Source: a virus. From it: a stretch of 20,007 nt of DNA. The stretch is taken from positions 1 to 20,007 of the IMG/VR virus record IMGVR_UViG_3300023208_000402. One strand, given 5' to 3'. The first letter of the stretch is position 1; the number at the start of each line of letters is the position of its first letter. Below the pieces are notes generated by a model that searched no databases, had not been told where the DNA came from, and saw only the letters and a list, made by a program, of their open reading frames with translations. The position numbers and the translations under genes were made by a program. Below, piece by piece: positions 1,398 through 19,677 of this stretch.

Positions 1398-1726
1398 CGC
1401 GGCGCCGTCCCCGCGCCATCCAGCGGCGCCCAGTCGGTAACGCGGCGCACCGGGTGCCGCACGCGGCCGCGGCGCAGCAGGTAGCCCAGCAGCACCACCG
1501 CGGCCCCGATGTGCACGCCGGCCAGGCACAGCATGAGCGGGCGGTACGGCGTCCAGTCGCCGCCGAGCAGCAGCATGGAGACGCCCAGCTCACTCAGCGC
1601 CATCAGCACCAGGCCCAGCTTGATCACGATTCCGTCGTTGACGGTGGGCGACAGGATGAGCCACGAGAGGCCGGTGAACAGCACCAGGGTGGCCAGGGCG
1701 TTGATCAGGGAGAGCGCGTCCATCAT
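1394..1726 (-). CDS. small three-helix membrane protein, probable holin
   Basis: A 110-residue protein with three hydrophobic segments at about 8-28, 33-55 and 63-84 and a basic tail (RRGRVRHPVRR), the general plan of class I holins. No named holin family is recognised from the sequence. Two ATG codons stand side by side (1726 and 1723). The first overlaps the upstream stop (ATGA); the second has the better spacing (6 bases) from GGAGG. It lies directly before the endolysin and overlaps it, the usual holin position. The gene upstream is a second small membrane protein, so one of the two may be an antiholin. Confidence 0.6.
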   Translation of the reverse strand: MMDALSLINALATLVLFTGLSWLILSPTVNDGIVIKLGLVLMALSELGVSMLLLGGDWTPYRPLMLCLAGVHIGAAVVLLGYLLRRGRVRHPVRRVTDWAPLDGAGTAPR

Positions 1727-2049
1727 TGGCCTCCACCGAAGCGACGGGTGAGGAACCCCGCGAGATCGAAGGTGCGGATGGCCTGTGTCACCGCGTCGGC
1801 GATGGAGATGCCGAACAGGCCGATGACCAGGCCGGTGACGCTGATCTGCGACGGGCTCAGGTGCAGGCGCTCAGCCACCGCCGGGGCCAGCACGCCGGCC
1901 AGCACCGTGCCGCTGGCGACGTTGGCGACCTTCGTCGGCCAGCCGGTGCCGGGCGCCCAGCGCAGCCCCACCAGGGATCCCAGCAGGCCGAAGGCCCCGG
2001 GGTGAGATGCGACAGCTGCGGCCGCGGCGTCAATGTCTGGCGGCTGCAT
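1723..2049 (-). CDS. small membrane protein, holin or antiholin candidate
   Basis: A 108-residue protein starting at ATG 2049 behind AGGAGG, just after the tailspike stop at 2069. The frame extends a further 22 codons upstream, but that part overlaps the tailspike gene and lacks a good ribosome site. Hydrophobic segments fall at about 17-30 (GAFGLLGSLVGL), 44-58 (NVASGTVLAGVLAPAV) and 68-88 (ISVTGLVIGLFGISIADAV); the C-terminus is short and basic (FLTRRFGG). It is similar in size and layout to three-helix phage holins. Assignment as holin or antiholin relative to the next gene cannot be made from sequence. It opens the lysis cassette. Confidence 0.55.
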   Translation of the reverse strand: MQPPDIDAAAAAVASHPGAFGLLGSLVGLRWAPGTGWPTKVANVASGTVLAGVLAPAVAERLHLSPSQISVTGLVIGLFGISIADAVTQAIRTFDLAGFLTRRFGGGQ

Positions 2050-2068
2050 TACAGGGCCTCCTGGTGGG

Positions 2069-3811
2069 TCATACGATCTGCGCTGCGGCCACGTTGAATC
2101 CGCCCGACACGGCAATACCGGCGCCGGTGACGTTGGTGCAACGAACCTTGACCGCTGATGCGCCAGAGTCCCAATACGCCTCCCATGACACTCCTGCCGG
2201 GATCGCGAAAATGGGGGTCGCCTTGAGCATGAACGTGTTGTCCACGCCGCTGATCGTGACCGTCTGATCGACGCTCGACTGAGCCGGGATGGTGCCGAAG
2301 TTCAAGCTGACATTGACGCGCCCTTGCAGTGCGCGAATAGCGGCTGAGTTGGTCCCTCGGCTGAAGCGCAAGCCTGCGAATCCACCCCCCGTGTTCTCGA
2401 TGTGCACGTCCGCCGTCGCGCTCGTGCTGATCAAGCGGATGATCAGGTTGCGAGTAGTGGCCTCCTTGACGATCTGCCAGACACCTGATGTCGTGGCCTC
2501 GATGAAACGCAGGTCGAACCACGCAATTGGAGACTTGAAGAGCGGCAGGTTCGTGATCGAGCCCCGCTTCCCGACGACGTAGTTTCCAGCTCCGTTGTCG
2601 GTGATCTGGTCGTTCGTCAATGCGATTCGATCGCCAATCACCCAGTTCTCATCGGCCCCGCTGTCAAGGATGGTGCCGCCCGCGGTGTTGTTCTCGGTGT
2701 ATGCCTTCGGCAGGTAATTGCCGCGCGCATACTGGGCGAAGTGGACTCCATAGCCGGTGTTGTTCTGGCAGGCAATTCCGAGCAGCTGGTTCTCGCACGC
2801 CTCGCCAACCTTCAGGCCATCCCCACCATTGAAAGACGCCTCGAACCCGTGGAGGCAGCCGGCGTTTGCATCAGGTACCGTCGTTTCGCCCTCGTGGCTA
2901 ATGAACAGTCCGTGGCGTGTGTTCGATCGGCTGATGGCGTTCTCGATGCGCCAAAGGTTCGTGTTGGCGGAACTCACCGCGTAATCGCCGACCTTGATGC
3001 CATCTCGGCCATGGCCGAAGGACGACACGTTGCGAAGGCTGGACCGGCCGCCAAGGACATGGATCCCGTCTCCACCGTTGCCAGCATCACCTTCGACGCT
3101 CAGGTTCTCGAGTTGAGAGCCGACGTTGACCACGACGCCATTGAAGTTGCCCCGCTTGATGAAGCGCGTCCCAGCCTGGCCAGCGACCGTGCCGTAACCG
3201 TCACCGTGCACCTTGACGAGATTCGGCACCACCAGTTGGGAGGTGAACAGGTACACCCCCTCCGGCGCGTAGATCTTCTTCCGGCCGCAGGAGAAGGCTG
3301 CGGTTAGGGCGGCGGTCACGTCCTGCGTCAGCGTGCCAGCCTTCACGTCCGCGATCTGCGCTTCGGTCATGAAGTCGAACACGCTGACGCTCTCGCTGAG
3401 CTTGTCCTCTACCCAGCGCGCCACCGCTCCAGTCAAGCGCAGCATGTAGGCAATGAGCTTCGACCCCTTGCCTACAGCCGGAGAGGCCAGATTGGCGCCC
3501 AGAGAAGCAAATGCTGCGAAGTCGGCGGACTCCTTGGCATAGACAACCAATCGGCGCTTGGCATCCCTCACGGTCAACGAATAGTCCAGCGCAGCCGTGA
3601 ACACTTGAGTGGGGGTGCCATAGCGGACGGCGCACCCGTTGATGGTCCGGATGGGTTGCTCTGCTGGCTGAGTCCCCGCCGCGTCCCAGTAGACCTGGAC
3701 CGGGTTCGTCTCAGGGTTGTCGTTGGCCGCCCCAAAGTACAGGTAGCCGCTGTCGAGCGGCCGGCCTTGGAGGTCGAAGTACTGTGGGAACGGGGAAACA
3801 GTGGCGAGCAT
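2069..3811 (-). CDS. tailspike with P22-type head-binding domain and beta-helix
   Basis: A 580-residue tailspike. Residues 1-92 resemble the P22 gp9 head-binding domain: PFPQYFDLQGRPLDSGYLYFG, a middle with NPVQVYWD, and a terminal VRDAKRRLVVY (compare MAIYDANGSQV in P22). A linker follows, then FMTEAQIADVKAG, the entry motif of many phage pectate-lyase-like beta-helix proteins. Gly- and Asn-rich coils run from about 180 to 400 (GDGIHVLG, DGIKVGD, GGDGLKVGE). The C-terminal part (about 415-580) looks like a beta-sandwich trimer domain. Tailspikes of this form bind, and often cut, host O-antigen or capsule. The catalytic residues cannot be placed without a structure. The start at 3811 has GAGGA 6 bases upstream. 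It is shorter than P22 gp9 (about 667 aa). P22 tailspikes are trimers attached below the portal-gp4-gp10 stack. Confidence 0.85.
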   Translation of the reverse strand: MLATVSPFPQYFDLQGRPLDSGYLYFGAANDNPETNPVQVYWDAAGTQPAEQPIRTINGCAVRYGTPTQVFTAALDYSLTVRDAKRRLVVYAKESADFAAFASLGANLASPAVGKGSKLIAYMLRLTGAVARWVEDKLSESVSVFDFMTEAQIADVKAGTLTQDVTAALTAAFSCGRKKIYAPEGVYLFTSQLVVPNLVKVHGDGYGTVAGQAGTRFIKRGNFNGVVVNVGSQLENLSVEGDAGNGGDGIHVLGGRSSLRNVSSFGHGRDGIKVGDYAVSSANTNLWRIENAISRSNTRHGLFISHEGETTVPDANAGCLHGFEASFNGGDGLKVGEACENQLLGIACQNNTGYGVHFAQYARGNYLPKAYTENNTAGGTILDSGADENWVIGDRIALTNDQITDNGAGNYVVGKRGSITNLPLFKSPIAWFDLRFIEATTSGVWQIVKEATTRNLIIRLISTSATADVHIENTGGGFAGLRFSRGTNSAAIRALQGRVNVSLNFGTIPAQSSVDQTVTISGVDNTFMLKATPIFAIPAGVSWEAYWDSGASAVKVRCTNVTGAGIAVSGGFNVAAAQIV

Positions 3812-3820
3812 GCTCGGTCC

Positions 3821-5851
3821 TCAGTTCGGGATGGCTTCAGCCGGCAGGGTGGCCTGCTGCGCTTTTTCTTTGGCCTTGGCTGTCCGCAGTGCATCGTTGA
3901 CACGCTGGCGCACGCGGCGGTCCTTGAGGTGCTGTGACAGCACCTTCATGCCGGTAAGCACGGGAACGGGCAGGCCGGTCATCGAGCCTGCGGCCCCGGC
4001 CTCCGCCAGGGCCGCCAGCACGACGCTCGCCGTGTTGCTGTGGTTAACGGTCCCGGGCGGGGTGGTCAGCACGTACGCCGAGATTTCAGCCAAGTCGCGC
4101 GCGGACTGCGCTTCCTTCTTGCCCAGCACCAGATCGAGTCGGCCGTTCTTGTCCAGGCGCTTGACGGCGTCGAGGTACTTGGCATGCGAGAAGATCGTGC
4201 GGCCAGCCTGGTCCGTGGCGCTGTTGGCCAGGGCTTGCTCGCGCAGGTAGCGGTAGGCGGCGCCGCGCAGTTCGGTCCAGGCCTGGGCACCATCCTCGCC
4301 GCCAGACTGCAGCAGGTTGCGCATGAAGGAGACGTCGTCCTGCGAGCCCTTGAGCACCACGCGGTCGAAGACGTTCTCTGCGGCAACCTTGGGGTCTGCC
4401 ATCTTCTTGCGGTTGGCCAGCAGGTCAGCCACTACGGCGCGGTTTTCGAACTTCCGGGCCAGGTCGATGCGCGCCGAGCGAGCGGCCTTGTAGGCGTCGC
4501 CGCCCACGCCATCGGTCATCGCGTCCAGCGTCTCTCGGATGCCGGAGGCCATGGCCATGTCGGGCCCTTCCTGCTTGGTGAACTTGTTCACCGCCTTGCG
4601 CACCGCCTCGAGCTTGTTCAGGTCCAGCGTGCCAGCGACGAGGGAGCCGTCATCGGCCAGCGACGCGCCGCCGAGGCGCACGAGCTCGTCCTTCGCCACC
4701 TTCAGCACCGGCGCCGTCGTTTCACCTACGCGGTTTTCATTCAGGAAGCCCACCAGGCCATCGGTGCCCACCGGCTCGGCCATGTCGCCGGCCTTCTCCG
4801 CCTGCTTGTATAGCGCGCGAACCTTGGCTTTTTCGCTCGCCTTCATGTTGGTGAGCGTGTCCACCACCCGGTTGCCGGTCTGGACGTTGTCGATGGTCTC
4901 GGCCCCGGTGCCATCGATCCAGCGCTCGACCGTCTGGGCGAGTTGGTGGTTTTGGTTGGCCGAGCGCTCCCGGATCAGCTCACCTACGGGCGTCTTGGCC
5001 GTCTCGGCCTCGAAACGCAGTTGATCGGGGTTGCGGGAGGCCTGGCCCTTGGTTAGCGCTGAATCGCCCGTGAAACCGAGTTGCTCCGCCGTTGCGATGC
5101 GCTGGGCAGCGATGTCCGTGCCGGCGGCGCCAACACTACCCATGGTGCCCGGCGTGGCCTCGGCGGACCGGCCAGCACCAGGGGCAATGCGCTCCTGCGC
5201 CGCCTGGACCACCGGCGCGAGGCGCTCACGGGCCGCGGCCGTGGTGCCGCGAGCAACCACCGGAGCGGCAGCGGCGGCGCTTTGGCCGGCATTGGATGCC
5301 ACCCGCGCGATGCCGGCAAGTTCCCCAGTGAGGCCCATGACGGGGACCGTCTGCTGCAGCACCTCGCCAAGTGCCTGCACCTGCTGCTGTCCCTGTTGGG
5401 TGCGGGGCGCGTAGGTGAACCGCTCCGCGCCCTGCTCCGCCTGCTGCTGAACGCGCTGGGCCGCTTCCGGGGTACCGTAGCCGCCGGCAGCGATCGAAGC
5501 CGCAATGCCACCGAGCGCTCCGCCGGCCATGCCTAGCGCACCCCCGGTCGCACCGGTGATCGTTGCGAGGGCCGTCTCCGCTGCGCCGGCCACGCGGTCG
5601 CCGAACGACGGGGCGGGCTGCGGCTGTGCGCCCGGCACCGGTGCTGTTGCGTCAGGCGCCGGCGCTTGGAACCGCGGATCCGACTGCGGGATGGTGGACG
5701 CCGACAGACTGCCGGCGATGTTGCGCACCTGGCGGCCGCGGAAGTCCTGAGCCGCGCGCGCCTCCACCTGGTCGGGCGTGACGTTGTCCGGCACGTTCCG
5801 GTACTGGTGCGTGCTGCCGTCATCGAATGTGAGGGTGACGTCGCGCGGCAT
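3821..5851 (-). CDS. internal virion / DNA ejection protein (gp16 position)
   Basis: A 676-residue protein in the place of P22 gene 16, the largest ejection protein, which leaves the virion with the DNA and helps it cross the cell envelope. Residues 1-47 form a small domain beginning MPRDVTLTFDDGS, a type of N-terminus seen in other phage internal proteins. A Pro/Gln/Ala linker follows, then a Gly/Ala-rich hydrophobic stretch at 88-125 that could insert in a membrane. The rest is mostly helical and charged, with a second Gly/Ala-rich hydrophobic stretch near 610-635 (VVLAALAEAGAAGSMTG). The start lies 3 bases after the upstream stop. Homology to P22 gp16 (609 aa) is inferred from position and composition, not from a clear motif. 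Confidence 0.65.
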   Translation of the reverse strand: MPRDVTLTFDDGSTHQYRNVPDNVTPDQVEARAAQDFRGRQVRNIAGSLSASTIPQSDPRFQAPAPDATAPVPGAQPQPAPSFGDRVAGAAETALATITGATGGALGMAGGALGGIAASIAAGGYGTPEAAQRVQQQAEQGAERFTYAPRTQQGQQQVQALGEVLQQTVPVMGLTGELAGIARVASNAGQSAAAAAPVVARGTTAAARERLAPVVQAAQERIAPGAGRSAEATPGTMGSVGAAGTDIAAQRIATAEQLGFTGDSALTKGQASRNPDQLRFEAETAKTPVGELIRERSANQNHQLAQTVERWIDGTGAETIDNVQTGNRVVDTLTNMKASEKAKVRALYKQAEKAGDMAEPVGTDGLVGFLNENRVGETTAPVLKVAKDELVRLGGASLADDGSLVAGTLDLNKLEAVRKAVNKFTKQEGPDMAMASGIRETLDAMTDGVGGDAYKAARSARIDLARKFENRAVVADLLANRKKMADPKVAAENVFDRVVLKGSQDDVSFMRNLLQSGGEDGAQAWTELRGAAYRYLREQALANSATDQAGRTIFSHAKYLDAVKRLDKNGRLDLVLGKKEAQSARDLAEISAYVLTTPPGTVNHSNTASVVLAALAEAGAAGSMTGLPVPVLTGMKVLSQHLKDRRVRQRVNDALRTAKAKEKAQQATLPAEAIPN

Positions 5852-5854
5852 GGC

Positions 5855-7243
5855 TTACCAGCTCGAAACGGTCGCGCCGCCTTTGGTGGTCGCTGGGGCA
5901 GCGCTACCACTGGCCTGCGGCTGGAAATCACTGCTGCTGGGCTTCGGCCGCGCCGCGGGGATGTCCGGCGCCGATAGCGGCACGCCCGTGCGGACCGAAA
6001 GGTTCTGCCGGCCCTTGTTGACAAGTCGGAATGCCTCGTCGAGGCTCTCGCGGAACTGCTTCTCGCTTTGGGTGCGCTTAAGGTTGGCCAGCGCGGCCTG
6101 CAGCTTCTCGCCCTCGGCGTTCGACAGCGCGCCCTGCCCCTTCATGTTCGGGACCTGCGAAAGGAAGGCCTGTGAGCCCAGTTGCTCGATCAGCGCGATG
6201 GCGTCTGCCCGGTCGTTGGCCGAGGCGGTGATGCCCATCGCGGCAGCGGTGTTGCTGCCCATCAAGGTGTGCGGGTACATCTCGTTGCCAGCGACCGGCC
6301 CGACCACCGTGCCGAGCGCCGGGTTCTTGCGCAGGCGCTCAATGGTGTTGAGCATGTTGTCCATCGTCGCTGCGCTGGCCTCCGCGCCGGCGACCTTCTC
6401 ACGGATCTTGTCGTCAAGCGCAGTGCGCGCCTCCTGCGCCTTGAGTTGAAGTTCCTCGCGCTTGAGTTGGTTGCCCTCGCGGCTAGTGGCCGCATTCATC
6501 GCGGCGATGCGGTTCGCCTCCTTGGCGATCTCGATGTCGGCCACCACCTTCTTGATGTCCCAGCCCTTCTTTTGCAGGTCCATCACGGCGCTCTGGTCGG
6601 CGTACTTCGCGGCAACCTTCGCCGTTTCGGCATCGGCTTCTGCCTTGTTGGCGCCCGCCTCGGCAGTGCGCAGTTCAGCAGGGGCCTTCGCGGCCGCGCG
6701 GTCTTCCGCTCCAATCTTTCCAACGCTCTCGATCACCTTGTCGCCGCCGGGCAGCGACGCGAGCATGAGCCCCATGACGTTCCCGGCGAACTCCGGGTGC
6801 TCACGCACCAACTGAGCCTGCGTTCGAAGCGCATCGATCTCACGCTTATCGGCTCCAGAGTTCTCCATCGCCGTTGCGCGCTGGTCCATGAGGTCCGCAG
6901 CGATCTCCGGCTTGCCGTTCCGGACCGCGGCGTAGTACTGGGACACGTCGCTGAGATGCGATTGCTGCTGATCGGCGCTGCGCAGCTTCCAGGACGATTC
7001 GAACTGCTCGCGTAGCTGAGGCATCTGGACGATGGCGTCCGCGTAGTCCTGGGCCGTCTTCTGAGGCTTGGACATGAACTGCTGCAGGTACTGCTGCTGC
7101 CGTTGCTGCTGCTGCAGCGCGAGCTGTTGCTGCTGTTGCTGCATCTGGTCCTGGCGGATCGCCGCGCCGGCCTGGTAGCCCTTCAGCGCAGATTCGAAGG
7201 GCGTGGCGACGTCGATGCTGTAGTCGATCGGTCCGAGGGCCAT
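5855..7243 (-). CDS. DNA ejection protein (gp20 position)
   Basis: A 462-residue, mostly helical protein in the P22 gene 20 position; P22 gp20 is 471 aa. After an N-terminal segment (GPIDYSIDVATPFESALKGYQAG) comes a Gln-rich tract at about 33-54, then long charged heptad-like stretches (about 190-290, rich in Ala, Lys and Glu) that suggest coiled coil, and a Pro/Ser/Ala-rich C-terminus. The opening 'P..YSIDV..PF..ALKG...G' occurs in many phage ejection proteins. The ATG shares one base with the upstream stop (TGATG), so translation is probably coupled. No enzymatic motif is visible. Confidence 0.7.
   Translation of the reverse strand: MALGPIDYSIDVATPFESALKGYQAGAAIRQDQMQQQQQQLALQQQQRQQQYLQQFMSKPQKTAQDYADAIVQMPQLREQFESSWKLRSADQQQSHLSDVSQYYAAVRNGKPEIAADLMDQRATAMENSGADKREIDALRTQAQLVREHPEFAGNVMGLMLASLPGGDKVIESVGKIGAEDRAAAKAPAELRTAEAGANKAEADAETAKVAAKYADQSAVMDLQKKGWDIKKVVADIEIAKEANRIAAMNAATSREGNQLKREELQLKAQEARTALDDKIREKVAGAEASAATMDNMLNTIERLRKNPALGTVVGPVAGNEMYPHTLMGSNTAAAMGITASANDRADAIALIEQLGSQAFLSQVPNMKGQGALSNAEGEKLQAALANLKRTQSEKQFRESLDEAFRLVNKGRQNLSVRTGVPLSAPDIPAARPKPSSSDFQPQASGSAAPATTKGGATVSSW
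7081..7143 (-). repeat. CAG/CTG-type triplet tract coding for a poly-Gln stretch
   Basis: Mostly CTG and TTG triplets on the plus strand (CAG and CAA on the coding strand) encode about 17 Gln in 22 codons near the N-terminus of the gp20-position protein. Leu, Arg, Ala and Tyr codons break up the run. Such tracts can change length by slippage. Whether this one does is unknown. Confidence 0.6.
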
Positions 7244-7938
7244 CAGAATTTCCCCCCGTTGCCGTAGTAGGTCCCAATGGCCTGGGTGACGCCGTTGACT
7301 GCGCTCGACGTGGCCTTGCCTTGCGCCAGGTATGCGCCTGCTTGGGCCGCGCCTTGCTGCTGCAGCAGGTTCGTCACGTTGCCAGCCGACTGCATGCCTG
7401 CGTTCCCGGTCATGGCGGCCGCGTTCTGGCCGATGCTGGTCATGCCACCCAGCTTCGTGTACTGGTCATTGATCGTCTGGGCCAGAAGAAGAGGCGAGTA
7501 CTGTGCAAGCGCAGCCTGCGTGTTGCCGCCTCGCAGCCCCCCAGTAGCCGAGGCGTTCTGCAGAATGCTGGTCTCGCCCTGCTTTAGCTGCGCCTGAAAT
7601 GCTGGCGAGCTCTGCAGCGCAGCCACTGCCTGCTGCTGGGCATTGGCGCCGTTCAACCCAAGCAGGTTCTGCTGCGCCGACAGCGACGAGTTCCCGGCTT
7701 GCACGTACGGGCTCAGCAGCTTCTGAATCGCTGCAAACTGCTGGGTGTTCTGATCGATGCCGGCTTCTGCTGCGGCCTGTTGAGCATCAGCGGCCTTGTT
7801 CGCGGCGCTGCGCTGAGCGTCGGCCGACACCACGCCTCCGACCACCGCGGCGCCAACCATGGCCGCCGCAACCGTCGTCATCCGAGCCGACAGCCCCTCA
7901 AGCGAGGGCCATCTCCGGGTGTTAGATGAGCTTCGCAT
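7243..7938 (-). CDS. DNA ejection protein (gp7 position)
   Basis: A 231-residue protein in the P22 gene 7 position; P22 gp7 is 229 aa. Two starts compete. ATG 7938 overlaps the acetyltransferase gene by 17 nt and has GGAG 7 bases upstream. ATG 7881 gives MTTVAAAMVGAAVVGGVV, a hydrophobic N-terminus typical of this ejection-protein class, but has a weaker ribosome site. The first 19 residues from 7938 are basic and Ser-rich, and from memory P22 gp7 loses about 20 N-terminal residues on maturation, so the longer form is kept. The remainder is Gln-, Ala- and Asn-rich with AAANKAADAQQAA-like helix, 'LSPYVQAGN' and 'LNGANAQQQAV' motifs, which recur in phage DNA-transfer proteins. Confidence 0.7.
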   Translation of the reverse strand: MRSSSNTRRWPSLEGLSARMTTVAAAMVGAAVVGGVVSADAQRSAANKAADAQQAAAEAGIDQNTQQFAAIQKLLSPYVQAGNSSLSAQQNLLGLNGANAQQQAVAALQSSPAFQAQLKQGETSILQNASATGGLRGGNTQAALAQYSPLLLAQTINDQYTKLGGMTSIGQNAAAMTGNAGMQSAGNVTNLLQQQGAAQAGAYLAQGKATSSAVNGVTQAIGTYYGNGGKF

Positions 7939-8446
7939 ACAGGCGCTCCACGGGCTTGTAGCCCAGGCGTTCGAACAGTGGCCCCTGGTCCATGTGGAGC
8001 TTCGTGGCAGTGAAGAGCTTGCGGACGCCCAGCTTCTTCAACTCTCGCTCCACGGCCTGGAAAAGGCGCATCGCGGTGATTCCGTGTCGGCACTCGGGGG
8101 CAATCCAGTAGACGTCTGTGATGCCGTGCAGCGTGCTGGCGTAGTGGAGGTGCCAGGACACGATGGCGACGTGATAGCCGATCAGCAGGCCATCGCGGCG
8201 CACGGTGAGGACATGCAGGCCGCCCACATCCGCCAGGGCGTCGTAGCGCGCGTGGTCAATATCGAGAGGAACGTCGGCATGGTTCAGCGCCACCTCTCGC
8301 CAGTGGCGGACGAACAGCTCACGGGCCTCTCCCTTAAACGATCTCCAGGGCTCGGTCTGGTACACGGTCCCGCGTTGGACCGTTCGCACGCCCTCAGACG
8401 CTGTCGCGAGGATGGCGCCACCCGTGGCCATGATGGCGCCGATCAC
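7922..8446 (-). CDS. GNAT-family N-acetyltransferase
   Basis: A protein of about 174 residues with a GNAT core: strands around LHVLTVRRDGLLIGYHVAIVSW, then GITDVYWIAPECRHGITAMRLFQAVERELKK, which matches the acetyl-CoA pyrophosphate-binding beta4-alpha3 motif (R-H-G-I-T in place of R/Q-x-x-G-x-G/A). A C-terminal LFERLGYKPVERLYAKLI follows, typical of the GNAT end. The best start is GTG 8446, which overlaps the hydroxylase stop (GTGA) and has GAGG 8 bases upstream. GTG 8455 and ATG 8431 are alternatives. It would transfer an acetyl group from acetyl-CoA to an amine; the substrate is unknown. It fills the slot of P22 gene 14 (172 aa) together with the neighbouring hydroxylase, but sequence relation to gp14 is not shown. 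Confidence 0.8.
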   Translation of the reverse strand: MIGAIMATGGAILATASEGVRTVQRGTVYQTEPWRSFKGEARELFVRHWREVALNHADVPLDIDHARYDALADVGGLHVLTVRRDGLLIGYHVAIVSWHLHYASTLHGITDVYWIAPECRHGITAMRLFQAVERELKKLGVRKLFTATKLHMDQGPLFERLGYKPVERLYAKLI

Positions 8447-9033
8447 TTGGAGCACCTCGCGTCCATCACAAGATGGATACGGTCAATCGGGCTGTCGTTG
8501 ATGACTTCGTGCTCGACCTTGTTGTCGAACCAGAAGACAGACCCGGTCTCCCAGTACGTCACTTCGTCGCCCGCACGGAACTTCACGCCCTCTGCACTCT
8601 GCAGCACGACATGGAATCGGCTGTAGTAGCCGGCATGCTCTTCGGTGTCCGGATGAGGATAGATCCGGCCGCCAGGGGCGATCTTGTTGATAATGACGCG
8701 GCCGAGCCGCTCACCGGCAACCGCGGCGAATACATTCATGACCAGAGGGCGTGCCTCGGTCAGGATCGAATACGCGGGGTAGTCGATGCTCTCGTGCTGG
8801 TCGTACCCAGGCAGGCGGTTCTGCTTGTAGAGCTCGACCTTCTTCTCTGCGCTCTTGCCCTTGAAGACCACCTTCTCCGGGAAGCGGAGCATGATGCTCT
8901 CGACATCGCCGAACGGTCCTTGTGGGTAGTGCCGAAGGAAGGAGTCTTCCTTCCACAGGTCGGGCCGGCGCGCGAGGGCCAGCATCAATGGCATGACGTT
9001 GATGCCAGTACCGAGCCGCAGGAAGTTCCGCAT
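8443..9033 (-). CDS. 2OG/Fe(II) oxygenase, aspartyl/asparaginyl beta-hydroxylase-like
   Basis: A 196-residue protein with the double-stranded beta-helix fold signature of the aspartyl/asparaginyl beta-hydroxylase family. HPDTE at 127-131 supplies His127 and Asp129 as metal ligands, EHEVINDS at 174-181 supplies distal His175, and Arg185 (DRIHL) is the likely 2-oxoglutarate anchor. YYSRFHVVLQ at 136-145 and GSVFWFDNKVEH match the family pattern of strands around the active site. It would hydroxylate a side chain using oxygen, 2-oxoglutarate and iron, releasing succinate and carbon dioxide. The start ATG 9033 has a GA-rich ribosome site. It overlaps the acetyltransferase by 4 nt, so the two are probably co-translated. 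The substrate is unknown; a virion or host protein is possible. A 110-base gap separates it from the fibre gene upstream. Confidence 0.83.
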   Translation of the reverse strand: MRNFLRLGTGINVMPLMLALARRPDLWKEDSFLRHYPQGPFGDVESIMLRFPEKVVFKGKSAEKKVELYKQNRLPGYDQHESIDYPAYSILTEARPLVMNVFAAVAGERLGRVIINKIAPGGRIYPHPDTEEHAGYYSRFHVVLQSAEGVKFRAGDEVTYWETGSVFWFDNKVEHEVINDSPIDRIHLVMDARCSK

Positions 9034-9143: not shown

Positions 9144-10040
9144 TCAAGTGAGCAGTGCCGCGCGGGTAGTGTGCGTCTGGATCGCCGATTGCTGCAGGGT
9201 AAGCGACACCTTCAGCGCCGCTGTTGTGTCGATGGTTGCTGCTGAGTAGGCGCCGTTCGCAATGCCGAGCACCGCACTGGCCAGGGTGGCGCGGCCGCCC
9301 GCGGTTGCTGTGCCGGTGACGCCTGCGGTCAGGCAGGAAATCAGCGCCTCGACGCTGGTCCAGTCGTTCGCCACGCCAGCCGCGCTGGTGGCGAAGGTTG
9401 CCACCAAGGCGTCCGCAGTGGTCCCCGCAGTGCCGATGCGTAGGCGATAGGTCAGCGTGGCCGTGCTGCTCACCTGCCCGATAGCCGAGAGCCGCAGGTT
9501 TCGTCCTGCCGACAGGAATCCTGCGACAAGGCTCCACTGCGCAATTACCGTCTCGCCGGTGCCTGTGCCATTCGTGAGCGCGGCCGCCCCTGGCTGCGCG
9601 GTCAGTAGAGGATAGCGGGCGTCGCCCTCGGTTTGCGTGAGGTACTGAGGGTGCGGGTCAACCGCGGCGACGTGGGCGGCCACAGCGGCAGAGGCGGCGC
9701 CGATCGCGTCGTAGAGCGCATCCCCTTCGGCCTGCTGCAGGTACTGGGGATGCGGGTCGGCCGCAAGTTCGTGGGCCGAGATGGCCGCCACCGCTGAGTT
9801 GGCGGTGCCCTGTGCAGCGGCGGCGTCCGTGATTGCCTCCGCCGCCGCGTTCGCCGCCGCAGCCGCAACGGAGGTCGCCGTGTCGGCTGAATCCTGCGCC
9901 TCGTTGACGCCGGCCGGCAGCGTCGTGCCGACGTCGGACTGCAGGGCCTCGAAGACCTTGATGAGTCGATGATTGCCGCCCAACGCTGCAGCGAGCTCAG
10001 CGCGCGGGATGGGCCTGGTCTGGGTGATGAGGTCAGCCAC
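9144..10040 (-). CDS. tail fibre or tail needle protein (gp26 position)
   Basis: A 298-residue protein with a GTG start at 10040 overlapping the gp10-like stop. Residues 45-90 are Ala-rich and helical, fit for a trimeric coiled coil. Then come two copies, 33 residues apart, of a repeat holding DPHPQYL (95-101 and 128-134) followed by EGDA(L/R)Y; this HxxxDPHPQYL type is common in phage tail fibres. The C-terminal 140 residues (ETVIAQWSL, LTYRLRIGTAGTTADALVATF) are beta-rich and look like a jelly-roll knob. It lies where P22 has gene 26, the needle that plugs the tail and probes the envelope, but no gp26 sequence likeness is evident beyond length class and trimeric helix. A receptor-binding fibre is an equal alternative. 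Confidence 0.65.
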   Translation of the reverse strand: MADLITQTRPIPRAELAAALGGNHRLIKVFEALQSDVGTTLPAGVNEAQDSADTATSVAAAAANAAAEAITDAAAAQGTANSAVAAISAHELAADPHPQYLQQAEGDALYDAIGAASAAVAAHVAAVDPHPQYLTQTEGDARYPLLTAQPGAAALTNGTGTGETVIAQWSLVAGFLSAGRNLRLSAIGQVSSTATLTYRLRIGTAGTTADALVATFATSAAGVANDWTSVEALISCLTAGVTGTATAGGRATLASAVLGIANGAYSAATIDTTAALKVSLTLQQSAIQTHTTRAALLT

Positions 10041-11451
10041 CGTCGCCCCCGAATGTCAGCGGCTCGATCTGGGCCTGCAGCGCGGCGATCGACAGGTGGG
10101 CGTCGGACGTGCCACGGAACCGCTGCGTGCGGTACATCTGCATGTCGCCATTGCGGCGCCAAGCGATGCGCTTCGCCCGCTGGCCCTGCTTGCCGGCGGC
10201 CTTGGGACGCTCCTGGCTCCACGTCTCACCATCCAGGCTGTACGAGGTCCAAATTGTCGGCTCGGGGCCGAGCGCCACGCGGCCGGGGAGCGTGATGAGC
10301 TCCAGTTCATGGACCACCGCGCCGTCCCCGCCGTTGAACAGCATGAGAGTGCCGAACTCCCAGCCAATCTTGGCGCCGAAGTGGTCCGAGCGGTTCGTGA
10401 CAAGTTCACCGATGCCAGGTCCGGTCGGGTCGCCTGCGAGCCAACGGTCGTACGCCCACACGAGGCTTCGAGCGCGGTAGGTTGAGGGCTCCCCGAGGCC
10501 GCTGTCGGCGCTGTACCACACCGGTTCTCCCGCGGCCTTGGAGGCGGCCGCGTCGTAGATCCAGCACTGGTCCGGCAGGTGCATGTAGAGCTGTAGATGC
10601 CCCTTGGACACGCGTGACTCCAGCACCACATCGGCCAGTTGCGCCTCGGTGTAGCCCTCGAGCACTTGGTCGATCTCGCGCGTTGACAGCTTCGTCGAAT
10701 CGCCTGGCTGCATCAGCCACACCGCAGGCGCCTCGTTCTTGCCCCCCCCGAGGAACGCGAAAGACCCAATGAACTCGCTCACCGCGTGAGTACCGATCGC
10801 GCCCCGCGGCACCTGCGCTTCTTCAATCCGCTGAAATGGGAAGTTGTCGCCACCGACGTTCTCGAACACCTCGATCGTGTGCCGGCCGAAGGCATACACC
10901 TCGTTGCGCAACTCCCGCACGGCTTTGATGGGGTCGGGGTCGCTCTCCGCGCTGCCGTACTTCAGCGGGTTGACTGCGGTTGGGTCGTTGAGCTCGGTGA
11001 CGATCAGGTAAGTGCCGTCCGTGGTCATGTAGTACCCGGCGACCCACTGCATGTCCACCACTGTGCCCAGATCGGTATCGGTCACCTGGCTGAGCGTGGA
11101 ACCGTTCCAGTAGTACAGCCGGCCACCAGACGCGATCGCCAAGCGATCGAAGCCATAGTCCAGCGTGACCTGCCCCACCCCGCCGACATCCCCCAGTACC
11201 GTGACGCTTCCGCCTGCGCTCACGCTGCACAGCTTGGTGCCCATGACCCGGTACATGACCCCGTTCCATTCGATCCCGCCGCGGTCAACGCCAGGGCCGG
11301 TGCCGAACAACACAATGCCATCGGCCGGGCGCAGATAGCCCTGGCTGATGCCTTGCGCCTTCGGCACGGCGACCATGTTGCGCGGGTAGCGCGTGCGCCA
11401 GTCGGGGGCCTGGTCTGCGTACACGCCGTTCAGGATCGGGATGGCGGTCAT
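10033..11451 (-). CDS. packaged-DNA stabilisation protein, P22 gp10-like
   Basis: A 472-residue protein, the length I recall for P22 gp10, with matching landmarks: N-terminal NMVAVPKAQGISQGYLRPADGI (P22: NMLATPKE..SSGYLRSFPGI), VYR-type motif YRVMGTKL, LGDVGGVGQV (P22: VGDVAGSGRV), EVYAFGRHTIEVFEN (P22: IVCFGSSTIEYF) and a C-terminal arginine-rich RMQMYRTQRF-like block. P22 gp10 forms a hexameric ring below gp4 in the tail hub, closes the portal channel and carries gp26 and the tailspikes. The start at ATG 11451 has a poor ribosome site. The 45-base gap to the GH5 gene upstream is longer than most gaps here. Confidence 0.88.
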   Translation of the reverse strand: MTAIPILNGVYADQAPDWRTRYPRNMVAVPKAQGISQGYLRPADGIVLFGTGPGVDRGGIEWNGVMYRVMGTKLCSVSAGGSVTVLGDVGGVGQVTLDYGFDRLAIASGGRLYYWNGSTLSQVTDTDLGTVVDMQWVAGYYMTTDGTYLIVTELNDPTAVNPLKYGSAESDPDPIKAVRELRNEVYAFGRHTIEVFENVGGDNFPFQRIEEAQVPRGAIGTHAVSEFIGSFAFLGGGKNEAPAVWLMQPGDSTKLSTREIDQVLEGYTEAQLADVVLESRVSKGHLQLYMHLPDQCWIYDAAASKAAGEPVWYSADSGLGEPSTYRARSLVWAYDRWLAGDPTGPGIGELVTNRSDHFGAKIGWEFGTLMLFNGGDGAVVHELELITLPGRVALGPEPTIWTSYSLDGETWSQERPKAAGKQGQRAKRIAWRRNGDMQMYRTQRFRGTSDAHLSIAALQAQIEPLTFGGDGG

Positions 11452-11496: not shown

Positions 11497-13176
11497 TCAG
11501 GCGCCAATGCCATACGCAGTCGTGGAGCCCGAGCCGAGCGGCCACACGGCGTATAGATCTCGCTCGCCCCCCGTTGGGGGCGATGTCGGCGCCACAAACG
11601 CCCCCGCGTCGTCGTCCTTTAGCCATGCGGCGCACCAATACAACGCGCCACCATTGGCAGTGATTGCGTTCCCGGCGGTGCTCCCAGACGTGCCGACGCC
11701 CCAAGAGCCGCTGTCGCCAAGCCCTGCGGCGTCTCCCGTCGTGGCGGACGAAGCCACCAATACACCATCCACGTAAAGACGGACGCCAACCGTGCGCGAA
11801 TAATAAGCACGGATATGATGCTCCAGTCCGTCCTTAATATTCGATGCTGCGACTATCGTCACAGACCCATAGAGCGCAAGCGGCCTGCCAGAAGAGTCAA
11901 TGCCGAGCCGAAACGTGTTGCCGAAAAAGTATCTCGTCGCGCCTGGCGCCCAGCCAGAAGGAATGCTCACAACCCCCTCAAGCATGCACGGAGCGCTGCG
12001 GAAGACAGGGCTTAAATAGTCTCCGTTTGCGCTGTACCCCGGATTCACAGAATATGCTGAATAGCTGTACCCGCCTGTCATCGCTGTTTTGCCGTTGACA
12101 GTGCCGAAGACGACGCTTTGGTCCGACATTGATAAGACGCCCGCCGAAACTACCGTGGACCCATCGCGCTTTGAGCCGCGCAAAAAGTACGGACGCTGCG
12201 CCAACGACTGTTGTGTGTCAGCGTAATTTGATCCCTGCAAAAGCAGAATATAGGAGCCCGACCAATAATTACCCGCCCCCCATACTGTCCAGCCTATCCA
12301 CACGTCCGAATTGTTATTCATGTGCGCTAATCCGCGCTTCATGCAGTCGAGTGCCAGTTGAGTCGAACTGCCTGCTCCGCCTTCACCAAAAAACAGTTTG
12401 ATCCCCGCCTTGCGGGCGATCACGGTAGCGGCGCTTATGAAATTCCTGAAAATATTGGCGCCACGCACTTGTGCGCTTGTCCCCGAGAAGCCGTCATCGA
12501 AATATTGGTGCAGCTCATACGCGACGTTGTTGTACGGATCGGATATAAGCGCCGGCATGAGATACCCGCGCTTGTTCGTCGTGCCTTCGGAAACGAAATT
12601 GCCGACAGTGCTGCCGCTATTTGGAGGGACGAGGATTAGTTGGCTTGTGGCGCCAGCGCTCCTGATAGCAGATATGCACGCATTACACACCCCGGCCCAC
12701 ACCGTATAGTCGTTCTCCGCAGGTTCGTTCATCAACCCGAACACTACGTTCTGGCTAGATGCAAATACCGCCGCCAGTTTCCCCCAAAAGTCGCTCAGTG
12801 TTGCCGCATTGCAGTCCGATGTAACCGAGTAGTATTTGCCATAGTTGTGGCAATCAAGAATGACTTTGATTCCAAATGCGGCGCACCGAGAGACCATCGT
12901 CTGCAGTCGCCCGACATTGGTTGCGTCCAAGTCCCCGTATAACGTCGGCTGAAGCCTTTCCCACTTGAACGGGAATCTGACGATGTTCACTCCACGCGCC
13001 GCCCAAAACGTAACGCTTTGATTCCCCGGCAGGAAATAGTCAACACCGAACGTGCCCGGCAACACGCCGCCGGCGAACTCCATCCCAGACAGGTTGATGC
13101 CGCAATACTGCACGCCCGTGTCGGGGCCCGTGTACGCTTTAGCAATCGCGGCGCGAGCGAGAGATGATCTGCCCAT
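11497..13176 (-). CDS. GH5 glycoside hydrolase (cellulase-like) with LamG-like C-terminal domain
   Basis: A 559-residue protein. Residues 20-330 carry the full glycoside hydrolase family 5 set: Arg67 (NIVRFPF), HN at 110-111 (LDCHNY), NEP at 150-152 with acid/base Glu151, His223 (ELHQYFD), nucleophile Glu265 (FFGEGG) and the aromatic run GWTVWGAGNYW at 295-305. Family members cut beta-1,4 glucans, mannans and related sugars; the substrate here is unknown. Residues about 385-525 look like a LamG/concanavalin-type sandwich (FRLGIDSSGRPLALYG, HIRAYYSRTVGVRLYVDGVLVAS). No signal peptide is present, so release by lysis or incorporation in the virion is likely. GGAG lies 8 bases before the ATG. It sits between the gp4-like and gp10-like genes, where P22 has nothing. 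GC is about 51% at 12181-12360, against 70% at 11701-11760 and 10081-10140, which suggests acquisition by transfer. Confidence 0.87.
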   Translation of the reverse strand: MGRSSLARAAIAKAYTGPDTGVQYCGINLSGMEFAGGVLPGTFGVDYFLPGNQSVTFWAARGVNIVRFPFKWERLQPTLYGDLDATNVGRLQTMVSRCAAFGIKVILDCHNYGKYYSVTSDCNAATLSDFWGKLAAVFASSQNVVFGLMNEPAENDYTVWAGVCNACISAIRSAGATSQLILVPPNSGSTVGNFVSEGTTNKRGYLMPALISDPYNNVAYELHQYFDDGFSGTSAQVRGANIFRNFISAATVIARKAGIKLFFGEGGAGSSTQLALDCMKRGLAHMNNNSDVWIGWTVWGAGNYWSGSYILLLQGSNYADTQQSLAQRPYFLRGSKRDGSTVVSAGVLSMSDQSVVFGTVNGKTAMTGGYSYSAYSVNPGYSANGDYLSPVFRSAPCMLEGVVSIPSGWAPGATRYFFGNTFRLGIDSSGRPLALYGSVTIVAASNIKDGLEHHIRAYYSRTVGVRLYVDGVLVASSATTGDAAGLGDSGSWGVGTSGSTAGNAITANGGALYWCAAWLKDDDAGAFVAPTSPPTGGERDLYAVWPLGSGSTTAYGIGA

Positions 13177-13179
13177 TGG

Positions 13180-13779
13180 TCACACTCCGCTGACGATGTA
13201 GCTGTTGCGATTCGAGGCGCGCTGCTGGACCACGAACATCGGATTGCCGGCGTACGCTCTGGCGATGCTCGTCGTCGCACCATTGAGTAGCACCGTGCCA
13301 TCGCTGACGATGGAGCAGCCGCCCGCACTGGGGATCACGGAGAAGGCTACGTTGTCCTTCAGCCCGGCAGACAGTGTGATGGCATAGACGCCCGTGACCT
13401 CCAGGACAGCATCGGAATAGGTGTCCTGATTGGCCGTGGTGATGGTCACATCGGACGACACCAGCAAAACCCTAGCCCCTGACACCGCTGCTCCGTTTTT
13501 AGAGTCACGGGGCGTGCCGTCATCGCCCACCACCACCCGGCGCGACGGGTCCACGAAGGTGGAGACGTCATAGGTGACGGCGGAAACACCGGCCGTGAGA
13601 CCAACAGTGCGGTCTTGGTCGAACGGACCGATGCGCCATTCGTCGCCGGCGGTGAGCGCCTGAGTGAACGAGGCTTGCGTGGATGCGATCACCGCGACAC
13701 CAGGGCCGCGGCCGATGATCACTTGCTTGGCCGTGAGGCTGATGGAGGCGGTGACGCCGGCGTTGATGGTGGTGCTCAT
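13180..13779 (-). CDS. beta-rich phage structural protein, unknown role
   Basis: A 199-residue protein starting at ATG 13779 behind GAGGA; the frame is open 15 codons further but the earlier ATG overlaps the upstream gene. It is almost entirely Val/Thr/Ser/Ala beta-type sequence in two parts. Residues 1-90 contain IIGRGPGVAVIASTQ, WRIGPFDQDRTVGL and YDVSTF; residues 95-199 contain RVLLVSSDVTITTANQDTYSDAVLEVTG and SIVSDGTVLLNGATTSI. The second part looks like domains found in phage fibre and decoration proteins. It ends 3 bases before the GH5 start, and the ribosome site for the GH5 gene lies across its stop codon. An adaptor or carrier for the GH5 protein, or a fibre component, are guesses from position. 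Confidence 0.6.
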   Translation of the reverse strand: MSTTINAGVTASISLTAKQVIIGRGPGVAVIASTQASFTQALTAGDEWRIGPFDQDRTVGLTAGVSAVTYDVSTFVDPSRRVVVGDDGTPRDSKNGAAVSGARVLLVSSDVTITTANQDTYSDAVLEVTGVYAITLSAGLKDNVAFSVIPSAGGCSIVSDGTVLLNGATTSIARAYAGNPMFVVQQRASNRNSYIVSGV

Positions 13780-13786
13780 GTGTTCC

Positions 13787-14239
13787 TCAGCCGATGCGGT
13801 ACCAGGCGGCGAAGACCCCGTCATAGCGGAGCCGGAAGAAGGCGTTTGCGGCGAGCGTCGTTGGCGCGCCGTTGACGGTGTGGCCGTTGCCGTTGACGGT
13901 CAGCGCGGTCACGGCCTGGGCGCAGGTAACCGACACCTCCTGGCCATCGACACCTGCGGCAGGCAGGACCACCGTTCCGGCTGCATAGCCAGCAGCGGGC
14001 GTGAGCAGCAGCCAGACTGAGGATCCATCGGTGGGGGGCGCGACGGTGACGCTGAAGCCCGTCGCACTTGGCGCCGAGTACTGGGCCACCGGGGCGCCGG
14101 CAGCGGTCAGCAACGACTGGATGAGCTCGACAAGCTGGCTGACAGAGCAGGTGCGATCGGCGCCGTTGTCGGGGTCGTAGAACGGGAGCCGGGACCCGCT
14201 GGACGGATCCCCTTGGCTCAATCGGTTGATGGCCGACAT
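13787..14239 (-). CDS. beta-rich phage structural protein, fibre-like
   Basis: A 150-residue protein starting at ATG 14239 behind AGGAG (7-base spacing), 4 bases after the gp4-like stop. Residues 1-45 (MSAINRLSQGD, SRLPFYDPDNGADRTCSVSQLVELIQSLL) match the type of N-terminus seen on phage fibre-like proteins. The rest is a beta domain (TGFSVTVAPPTDGSSVWLLLTPAAGYAAGTVVLP, ending FRLRYDGVFAAWYRIG) that recurs in phages as a small virion protein. No enzymatic motif is seen. It lies with the next gene in the block between gp4 and the GH5 gene, so a structural role at the head-tail region is likely but not proved. Confidence 0.65.
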   Translation of the reverse strand: MSAINRLSQGDPSSGSRLPFYDPDNGADRTCSVSQLVELIQSLLTAAGAPVAQYSAPSATGFSVTVAPPTDGSSVWLLLTPAAGYAAGTVVLPAAGVDGQEVSVTCAQAVTALTVNGNGHTVNGAPTTLAANAFFRLRYDGVFAAWYRIG

Positions 14240-14243
14240 GCGG

Positions 14244-14717
14244 TCACTCCTGAAGGTCGAGATTGCCCGCTTCGTCCACCTGCAGCGGGGAGTCGTCGGG
14301 CACTGGCGTGAACGGCCGGCACCACCGGTTGCCCGCGCCCGCTGGGATCGAGCGGAGCTGCTGCTGACGCGGCATTGCGGCGACCCGTTCGAGGGCGTCG
14401 TAGCCGTCACTCGCCGCCATGCGTGACTCGATGCGGACCGCCTTGCCGTAGCCCGGGGCAATGCGCACAGCGAGGTTGAGATACACCGTCTCCACCGCGC
14501 CAGCCGGCAGATTGCTGTCGTCGTCGAGGTCCGAATCGTCGGGGGACGATGGCACCGGGTAGCCCAGTCGGATGCCGCGGGCCTCCCAGGTGCCCATCAT
14601 CGTGTCGAGCCGGCGCAGCGCGTCCTCGAGCTCCTCGTCTTCCAGATCGAAGACGCGGGCCGCCAAGCCCAACTCAGCGAATGCCTGCTCGATGATCTGC
14701 TGCTTGGTCCAGCCCAT
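14244..14717 (-). CDS. head-tail adaptor / tail accessory factor, P22 gp4-like
   Basis: A 157-residue protein (P22 gp4: 166 aa). It opens with GWTKQQIIEQAFAELGLA, then DLEDEELEDALRRLDTMMGTWEARGIRLGYP, the helical start and the 'L..LD.M...W...G..LGY' signature of this adaptor family, followed by VYLNLAVRIAPGYGK. In P22, gp4 monomers bind below the portal, extend the channel and provide the site for gp10 and the tailspikes. GTG 14720 and ATG 14717 are adjacent; ATG is preferred. It lies after the coat gene and one small gene, as expected from P22 order apart from the two extra fibre-like genes and the GH5 gene that follow. Confidence 0.83.
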   Translation of the reverse strand: MGWTKQQIIEQAFAELGLAARVFDLEDEELEDALRRLDTMMGTWEARGIRLGYPVPSSPDDSDLDDDSNLPAGAVETVYLNLAVRIAPGYGKAVRIESRMAASDGYDALERVAAMPRQQQLRSIPAGAGNRWCRPFTPVPDDSPLQVDEAGNLDLQE

Positions 14718-14729
14718 CACGCCACCCAG

Positions 14730-17592: not shown

Positions 17593-19677
17593 CTATTGCC
17601 CCATCGGATCGAACCCTGCCGGGGGCTGAGCGGCCTGCTGGAAGGCGTTCACCGCGTCGATCACCTGCTGCTGCTTCTCTGTGTCGATCTCCGCCAGCGT
17701 CTTCGCGGTCTCCGCGCGGGCCTGTTCGGCCTTCACGACGGTCAGCACCGTGTTGGCCTCGGCCTGCTTGGCCTTGCCTTCCGCCTCAGCGGCCGCGGCC
17801 ATGAGGTACTGTTGCTGAGGGTCCGGCTTCTGGCTTGCCTGCTCCTGCGCAAGCTCGGCCTTCTCCTCATCGTTCGGCTTGATCAAGCCCATACGAACGG
17901 CGCGAGCGCGGCCCCAGTCGCGCAGATCCCCCAGACCCTCCCCTTCGAGGTTCGAGATGGTGGCCAGAGTGAGTGCCTGCTTGGTCTCCGGGTCCTCGGT
18001 GACGCTGGCAATGCCGGTGAGTGCGCGCACGACCGCATTGCGTAGGCTGGTCGATGACGGGCCCACATCAGCGACGACGTCATAGGAGGCCTTCGCAAAC
18101 TCGTTGCGGATCACGCGCTTGCTAGTCTTCTCGTCGATCACCGGCTCGTTGACCACCGTGGAGCCGGACTGCCCGTTGGTGCTCACGGTCTTCATGCGGC
18201 GCGATTCCTCGACGGCCACGTCCCGCATCATCGACAGCCAGACCTCACCGGATCGCTTCATGGCCTTGGCGAAGTTGCTCATGTAGATGAACACCTGCAT
18301 GTCCAGCCGGTTCTGGATGAGCTCCACCGCCTTGCCCGACAGGTTCGGCTGCATCTGCTCGCCGGCCTGCTGGTTGCCCAGTAGGTCCTGCAGTGCCTGC
18401 TGTGCCATCTGCGCCAGAGCAGCCATGGCCGGCGGGATGTTCGGCGCCTTGGTGTAAGCGGCCGGCACCTGGCTGCCAGGGATCTTGCTGCCGGTCTGCT
18501 TGTCCTTCTGTGCGTTCGCCAGCAGGTACGGCCAGCGCTCGATGCTGTCGTTCGACCACATCTGCTCGTGGCCGGCGATCTGCTCCGGGTCGAAGATGGG
18601 CTTCTCGACGTCGAATCGCGCCGCCATCTCGGCCAGCCAGGACATGATCATGTTGATCAACCGCTGCGGATCGCGCGCCAGGCGGACATGCCCCATGAAG
18701 CGCTCGACGCCGTCCACCATCCAGCGCTTGCCGTAGAACGGAACGATCGGGATGCATCGGCCAGCGATGTAGCCGCAGTCCTCGAGGATCCGAGAGCCCG
18801 ACATGATGACCTTGCGGATTCGCCGCCGCTTGATGTTCTTGGTGCGCGCCAAGGTGTAGCCGGTGACACGCAGCCGCTCGATCAGGCCGGTGTCGGAATC
18901 GATCTCGTCCTGCGTGACCTTCAGCTCCTCCTGCCCCTCATCTCCGAGCAGGCCGGTGTAGAACCGGACCTGCTCCTTGGTCTCTTCGACGCTGTAGCGC
19001 TCGGCCACCCAGACGAGATCCGCGGTGCACCAATCAAACTGCAGTTGGCTGACCTCGTGCGGCCAACTCGACGGGTCGTCGTCGAACTCGGCCTCGTAGG
19101 CGTCGCGGCTGTAGGGCGTGAGAACGTAGCACCGCTTGGCGTCGGCCTTGTCCTGGCGCTTGGCGTCCAGGTCATAGAACACTGTGGTGTCGGCATCGAA
19201 GATCGGCTCGATGGAGATGCGCTGCCGCTCGTCGTCCTCGTCCTCCTCGTCCTCGTAGCAGGAGCGCAGCCGCCAAGCACCCATGCCGCCGCTGGTGCCC
19301 TCCTCGAAGGCGTTGTCATAGGCCTCGTTGGCGCTGCACCGCTGCTCGTCCGCACGATAGAGCCCGTCGCAGGTGTCGGCGAAGTCGTCGTTCGGCGCTC
19401 CGTCCGTGGGCTGAAAGTCCACCGTCACCCGGTTGTTGCGGTACTCGTTCACCACCCGGATCACCGCCAGGTGTACGTGGTTGAACTCGAAGCGCGCCTT
19501 GTTCTCGTACAGGTCGCCGACGTCGCCCTCCCACTGGGCGCCGGCGATGGAGTAGAAGCGCCGATCCTGCAGCGCCTGCAGTCGCTCGGCGTGGGTGGCC
19601 TTCTGGATGTCGTCGAACTCGCGCACGGCCTCCGCGTGGAGGTTCGCTAGTTCCTGTTCCTTGCTGAGTCGCGGCAT
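17593..19677 (-). CDS. portal protein, P22 gp1-like
   Basis: A 694-residue portal (P22 gp1: 725 aa). The N-terminus (ELANLHAEAVREFDDIQKATHAERLQALQDRRFYSIAGAQWEG) and the following NHVHLAVIRVVNEYRNNRVTVDFQP are typical of the P22 portal family. Further landmarks are YDNAFEEGTSGGMGAWRL, PIFDADTTVFYDLDAKRQDKADAKRC and GSRILEDCGYIAGRCIPIVPFYGKRW. The C-terminal 130 residues are a long Gln/Ala/Glu-rich helix, matching the barrel of P22-type portals. Twelve copies form the vertex through which the terminase packs DNA and to which the gp4-like adaptor binds. GGGAG stands 9-10 bases before the ATG at 19677. A small hairpin (17579-17593) covers its TAG stop. The 93-base gap to the terminase holds only the ribosome site and a weak GCCGG/CCGGC stem. 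Confidence 0.92.
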   Translation of the reverse strand: MPRLSKEQELANLHAEAVREFDDIQKATHAERLQALQDRRFYSIAGAQWEGDVGDLYENKARFEFNHVHLAVIRVVNEYRNNRVTVDFQPTDGAPNDDFADTCDGLYRADEQRCSANEAYDNAFEEGTSGGMGAWRLRSCYEDEEDEDDERQRISIEPIFDADTTVFYDLDAKRQDKADAKRCYVLTPYSRDAYEAEFDDDPSSWPHEVSQLQFDWCTADLVWVAERYSVEETKEQVRFYTGLLGDEGQEELKVTQDEIDSDTGLIERLRVTGYTLARTKNIKRRRIRKVIMSGSRILEDCGYIAGRCIPIVPFYGKRWMVDGVERFMGHVRLARDPQRLINMIMSWLAEMAARFDVEKPIFDPEQIAGHEQMWSNDSIERWPYLLANAQKDKQTGSKIPGSQVPAAYTKAPNIPPAMAALAQMAQQALQDLLGNQQAGEQMQPNLSGKAVELIQNRLDMQVFIYMSNFAKAMKRSGEVWLSMMRDVAVEESRRMKTVSTNGQSGSTVVNEPVIDEKTSKRVIRNEFAKASYDVVADVGPSSTSLRNAVVRALTGIASVTEDPETKQALTLATISNLEGEGLGDLRDWGRARAVRMGLIKPNDEEKAELAQEQASQKPDPQQQYLMAAAAEAEGKAKQAEANTVLTVVKAEQARAETAKTLAEIDTEKQQQVIDAVNAFQQAAQPPAGFDPMGQ

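Follow-up and report, generated by a model that had tools for sequence, protein, structure and literature searches.

A GH5 subfamily 5 glycoside hydrolase gene in a variable slot of a P22-like head-tail operon: a candidate virion-borne exopolysaccharide-degrading enzyme

An uncultured P22-like bacterial virus carries, in a variable slot among its tail and structural genes, a complete gene for a glycoside hydrolase of family GH5, subfamily 5 (GH5_5), and we think it probable, at a probability of roughly 0.58, that the product is a virion-borne or tail-associated enzyme that degrades exopolysaccharide. The window, by which we mean the whole stretch of DNA analysed, is an IMG/VR virus record of 20,007 bases. 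The family, subfamily, catalytic residues, operon position and variable slot are established here by sequence comparison, and from them we infer the activity, substrate, virion attachment and adsorption role of the protein. In the mechanism we propose, a P22-like short-tailed phage would have acquired a GH5_5 gene in its variable slot for receptor-binding proteins and depolymerases; the product would be translated with the head-tail proteins and would most likely be located at the tail or on it, attached by its C-terminal beta domain, by its slot neighbours ORF150 and ORF199, or by both. From that position it would cut an exopolysaccharide of beta-1,4-glucan type that surrounds the host, such as bacterial cellulose or a similar polymer, and clearing of this layer would let the tailspike reach its receptor. 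The features concerned, all on the minus strand, are as follows.

2069..3811, minus: the phage's own separate tailspike-like protein (weak pectate-lyase-like match)
10033..11451, minus: gp10-like head-closure/stabilisation protein, the other slot border (Phage_stabilise 1.1e-36; phrog_578 2e-101)
11497..13176, minus: GH5_5 glycoside hydrolase gene, 559 aa (open frame, Pfam, phmmer, structure comparison)
11500..12168, minus: C-terminal ~220 aa of that protein, possible LamG/concanavalin-like beta domain (weak Laminin_G_3 match)
12169..13119, minus: catalytic (beta/alpha)8 barrel, residues ~20-336 (confident AlphaFold2 model; VIA-align Z 41.4 to XacCel5A, 5hpc, over 307 residues)
13177..13195, minus: ribosome-binding region (GGAG), overlapping the end of ORF199; the GH5 ATG lies 3 nt past the ORF199 stop
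13180..13779, minus: ORF199, small protein directly upstream of GH5 (no family match)
13787..14239, minus: ORF150, conserved first slot gene with a gp10/TSP4-type docking fold (AlphaFold2 pLDDT 82; structure matches)
14244..14720, minus: gp4-like tail accessory factor/head-tail adaptor (Pfam P22_Tail-4 6.6e-17; phrog_637)
17593..19677, minus: P22-type portal protein (Pfam P22_portal 1e-142)

The GH5 gene is real: its frame runs uninterrupted from 13176 to 11497 for 559 codons, and the opposite (plus) strand of 11497-13176 carries stops throughout. Pfam PF00150 (Cellulase, GH5) matches residues 27-301 with an E value of 3.9e-44 and a score of 151.6 bits, the cut-off being 23.5. A sequence-only reading of this DNA had described a complete GH5 hydrolase without a signal peptide and would have been refuted by a family search placing the protein outside GH5; the frame and the Pfam match bear out the complete gene, the search places the protein inside GH5, and the N-terminus, MGRSSLARAAIAKAYTGPDTG, shows by eye no signal-peptide-like hydrophobic stretch. 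The identity of the protein as a GH5 enzyme is close to certain. A reading as an endoglycoceramidase was discarded, the NCBIfam match being sub-threshold (19.6 bits against a cut-off of 700), and PHROGs gave no match for the protein. A single-protein scan of viral contigs returned no close relatives of the whole protein.

The AlphaFold2 model, built from an alignment of 17 sequences (the window protein and viral ones), has high confidence for about residues 17-336 and not past there. In VIA-align comparisons GH5_5 structures score Z 34.4-41.4 and other GH5 subfamilies at most 28.2, and a profile search repeats this gap; solved GH5_5 cellulases are matched at 4e-56 by phmmer, the closest solved proteins by sequence being Xanthomonas and fungal cellulases. 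The barrel belongs to GH5_5. All eight GH5 catalytic-site residues (R67, H110, N150, E151, H223, Y225, E265 and W299) are present, with E151 as acid/base and E265 as nucleophile, and comparison with other GH5_5 proteins, in which these are likewise kept, confirms the full active site that the sequence-only reading had reported. GH5_5 enzymes characterised up to 2012 were all endo-beta-1,4-glucanases (PMC3526467), and a role for such enzymes in Pseudomonas bacterial cellulose formation has been proposed (PMC8900817). The targets suggested earlier (cellulose, mannan or another exopolysaccharide) are narrowed by this class, which favours beta-1,4-glucan and speaks against mannan or xylan. Judged from the sequence class, cellulase-type chemistry is likely, and bacterial cellulose, or another beta-1,4-glucan of similar kind, would be a natural target.

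One position departs from the subfamily pattern. The window protein has Gly188 where 29 of the 30 GH5_5 domains compared have Trp, Tyr or Phe, and thus lacks the +subsite aromatic (mostly Trp, with some Tyr or Phe), which is common in GH5_5 but does not formally define the subfamily. Counting from the acid/base Glu, position 188 would lie at or near the +subsite tryptophan, which in RBcel1 is Trp171 (PMC8900817). Since Gly188 replaces this aromatic, the substrate may differ from plain cellulose. An elaboration of the virion-borne reading, which we put forward only tentatively and think unlikely to hold in full, is that the +subsite has been remodelled so that the enzyme cuts a substituted beta-1,4-glucan (such as a polymer resembling acetan or xanthan, or a modified form of bacterial cellulose) and docks through a separate adaptor, ORF150 or ORF199, with no fused anchor.

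The gene stands in a continuous one-strand series in the order portal, scaffold, coat, ORF130, gp4, ORF150, ORF199, GH5, gp10 and further P22-type genes. Pfam models of the P22 portal, coat, gp4, gp10 and gp7 all match and the P22 order is kept, so the P22-like head-tail module recognised from the letters alone stands. The placement of GH5 between gp4- and gp10-like genes holds as to position, with the correction that it does not touch gp4, ORF150 and ORF199 intervening. Gaps are 4 nt between gp4 and ORF150, 7 nt between ORF150 and ORF199, 3 nt between ORF199 and GH5, and 45 nt between GH5 and gp10, and promoter and terminator scans found no internal promoter or terminator above chance. Because of these tight gaps, the GGAG and the lack of a promoter or terminator of its own, GH5 is expected to be made together with the virion proteins. 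ORF199 has neither a family match nor a close relative in our scan of viral contigs; the idea that it is a second copy of ORF150 was tried and found unsupported. Contigs that bear gp10 relatives at 48-61% identity have been assigned to Massilia, Acinetobacter, Chromatiales and other groups, an assignment that does not identify the host. N-terminal homologues of the tailspike-like protein at 2069..3811 occur at the equivalent place in related phages.

Elsewhere in the window, an aspartyl/asparaginyl beta-hydroxylase-family gene (8443-9033, minus; PF05118, 4e-15) and a GNAT acetyltransferase gene (7922-8455, minus) are found in the stretch that separates the gp10 region from the gene for the gp7 ejection protein; their products might modify virion proteins, and in Pseudomonas phage PfAn1 a putative acetyltransferase also adjoins ejection genes. 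A likely endolysin, weakly similar to the GH19 chitinase class, is encoded at 840-1529 (minus).

The place between gp4/ORF150 and gp10 is, by sequence, a variable cargo slot. Loci were fetched from gp10 (17, then 80 viral, a few of them shared, plus 8 from bacterial genomes), and in 87 the slot was bounded on both sides; counting as an insert any protein of at least 250 aa between ORF150/gp4 and gp10, 31 of the 87 carry at least one, and in 49 the gap is below 700 nt. The inserts form many mutually unrelated groups. A PHROGs scan of seven of them (loci are given by our own L numbers) returned structural-type results for four, namely a tail spike in L114, a tail protein in L016, a virion structural protein in L081 and a tail fibre assembly/minor tail protein in L095; those of L067, L133 and L137 gave no result. 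One complete relative has its slot gene annotated 'tail fiber', and none of the other sampled relatives has a GH5 in its slot. Since relatives use the slot for exchangeable tail and receptor-binding proteins, the virus particle is the most likely place for the enzyme. Locus L114 itself (588-6438) encodes three large slot proteins, at least two of which start, by eye, with an ORF150-like motif, one of these being confirmed by hhalign.

Base composition is less telling. The GC content of the GH5 gene is below that of the neighbouring genes and 8.7 points under gp10, and low GC had been considered a sign of a recent moron; this is weakened by slot tailspikes that are equally GC-poor, the slot tail proteins differing from gp10 by -11.2 (L016), -10.7 (L114) and -8.9 points (L129). 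Across the 31 insert-bearing loci the median GC difference is near zero.

How the protein might be attached is suggested by its neighbour. ORF150 has homologues in most relatives, and its model resembles CBA120 TSP4 in the N-terminal part (Z 10.4), T4-type baseplate chains (Z 8.1-9.4) and a Pseudomonas phage capsid spike (Z 8.4), with weak scores to the Pam1 and Pan3 tail complexes (Z 5.6-6.1); the predicted fold thus matches tailspike and fibre docking domains, those of TSP4 and T4 gp10 among them. The first 54 residues of ORF150 recur at the N-terminus of the L114 slot tailspike (hhalign E 2.6e-10, probability 96.8%). With an ORF150 profile, hhalign finds no such motif in the GH5 protein (probability 0.1%), which may carry anchors of other kinds. 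Its C-terminal part had been read as a LamG-like tail. The match to Laminin_G_3 at residues 412-497 (E 2e-4) is weak, its 22.0 bits lying under the curated cut-off of 27.6, and the AlphaFold2 model has pLDDT below 50 for most of residues 337-559 and is not usable there. Scans of viral contigs and related phages gave this part no detectable homologue and no close viral relative. A kinship of the tail with the LamG-bearing slot protein of L016 was also considered, and the direct match failed.

A profile scan found GH5_5 domains in 33 IMG/VR contigs, and where neighbours were checked, the fetched flank in most cases includes a virion or packaging gene; the neighbours scanned were hand-picked, so this is a description and carries no statistic. 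They include tail sheath (L026, L034), portal (L029), tape measure (L037, L040, L052), major head protein (L039, L048, L050), tail fibre (L036, L046) and terminase (L031, L049) genes, and in L049 the GH5 is fused to the podophage fibre domain Gp80. The order in L047 is tailspike, GH5, an unassigned gene in adaptor position and Hc3; that in L028 is an adaptor-like virion structural gene, a LamG-type virion structural gene (phrog_10356) and GH5, and phrog_10356 also occurs inside the P22-like slot of L081. Exceptions are L025, among NAD/nucleotide genes, L030, near a helicase, and L055, near a ribonucleotide reductase. The GH5_5 proteins of L025, L028, L045 and L050 have signal-peptide-like starts, which suggests that these phages export the enzyme instead of building it into virions. 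In L026 (5073-8963) and L033 (4914-9011) a single giant ORF encodes two or three GH5 domains, and in the former the GH5 domains are fused behind a tail-terminator domain. In a tree the viral rows are scattered among bacterial rows, forcing at least three label changes, and phages have therefore probably taken up GH5_5 several times. The nearest branch to the window GH5 is L028 (support 99/85), a pairing that is unsure because the branches are long, that of L028 in particular. The best database match labelled as phage ('Bacteriophage sp.', MT835628, our L020) was excluded as phage evidence; it looks like a mislabelled Bacteroidota locus of polysaccharide-utilisation type, with a TonB receptor, a SusD-like protein and several hydrolases, two of which are GH5_5-like.

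The slot, the operon and the placement of GH5 elsewhere in phages together favour association with the virion, and the earlier suggestion of a second polysaccharide-degrading enzyme besides the tailspike gains partial support, in that the slot of relatives holds tailspikes and virion proteins and GH5_5 sits beside or fused to virion proteins in other phages; the absence of the ORF150/tailspike motif tells against it, as do the lack of any recognisable virion anchor, the C-terminal part without a detectable homologue, the absence of a GH5 from every other slot sampled and the signal-peptide-like starts of some phage GH5_5. The missing anchor and signal peptide would suit a soluble cargo enzyme of the auxiliary-gene type, made late, kept outside virions and set free when the cell lyses, to break up biofilm or supply nearby cells with food. 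A late-operon position is equally expected of such an enzyme, the missing signal peptide does not separate the two readings, the GC deficit resembles that of acquired cargo, and a soil viral GH5 active as an endomannanase has been discussed as a carbon-degrading auxiliary gene (PMC6786970). However, no separate promoter serves the gene, which is coupled to structural genes, the slot's other occupants are tail and virion proteins, and tailspikes of the same slot are also typically GC-poor; we regard release as soluble cargo as possible but on the whole unlikely.

The loss of the aromatic at or near the +subsite and a possibly lectin-like tail would also fit a receptor-binding or adhesin protein whose GH5 barrel binds glycan and hardly cleaves it, but the catalytic residues are all intact, which is unexpected after loss of catalysis and makes this reading improbable. 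Finally, the fall in GC across the gene, together with our failure to find a second contig with the same junctions among the viral contigs scanned with GH5, could hint that the contig is misassembled or that a host gene has been attached to phage sequence. Against this, the operon is continuous at 3-45 nt spacing with phage genes on both sides, and the genomes and plasmids sampled contain no close bacterial donor, all bacterial relatives lying at or below ~40% identity; such an artefact seems very improbable indeed. The finding suggests that a second enzyme, of the cellulase type, may accompany the tailspike in some P22-like phages, and it points to a modular slot of the head-tail operon in which such enzymes and receptor-binding proteins get swapped. 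If the virion-borne reading is right, that would offer a testable route for phages through cellulose-type biofilms and make the slot an indexed place to seek new depolymerases.

Among known systems, the GH5_5 endoglucanases Xanthomonas XacCel5A/Xac0029 (5hpc, 5hos), Thermoascus Cel5A (1h1n) and RBcel1 (4ee9) share the fold over ~300 residues (Z 36-41) and the eight active-site residues; unlike them, the window protein is phage-encoded, is ~35% identical or less, has no secretion signal, has Gly188 and bears the extra ~220-aa tail. Xanthomonas phage LucasX gp247 (MW825358), GH5-like by alignment, is likewise a phage GH5_5-like protein without a signal peptide, and a tail host-specificity gene lies a few genes upstream of its own; it differs in belonging to a jumbo phage, in its 709 aa, in its C-terminal part and in an insertion within the barrel. 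The connector modules of L028 and L047 also place GH5 next to genes for adaptor-like, tailspike or virion structural proteins, but they may differ from the P22 gp4-gp10 slot, and the L028 enzyme has its signal-peptide-like start. With podophage tailspike depolymerases of the P22 type, whose like is found in the L114 slot, our protein shares the proposed task of stripping surface polysaccharide enzymatically ahead of DNA entry; those tailspikes are trimeric beta-helices that bind the virion through an N-terminal part, whereas this is a GH5 barrel in which none is recognised. The soil viral endomannanase demonstrates that a phage-borne GH5 can be active (PMC6786970), although it cleaves mannan, and Gp255 of Bacillus phage BpSp is a stand-alone glycoside hydrolase that forms part of the virion (PMC4870245), differing in its LysM domains and its action on host cell-wall extracts. 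BFVD matches include phage proteins already annotated as GH5 (Erwinia phage pEp_SNUABM_01 and Pseudomonas phages POR1 and Skulduggery). Annotated phage GH5 proteins, one active soil viral GH5 and a stand-alone virion glycoside hydrolase are thus already known; what is new is the P22-like slot, the presence in it of a GH5_5 that lacks a fused anchor, and the departure at Gly188.
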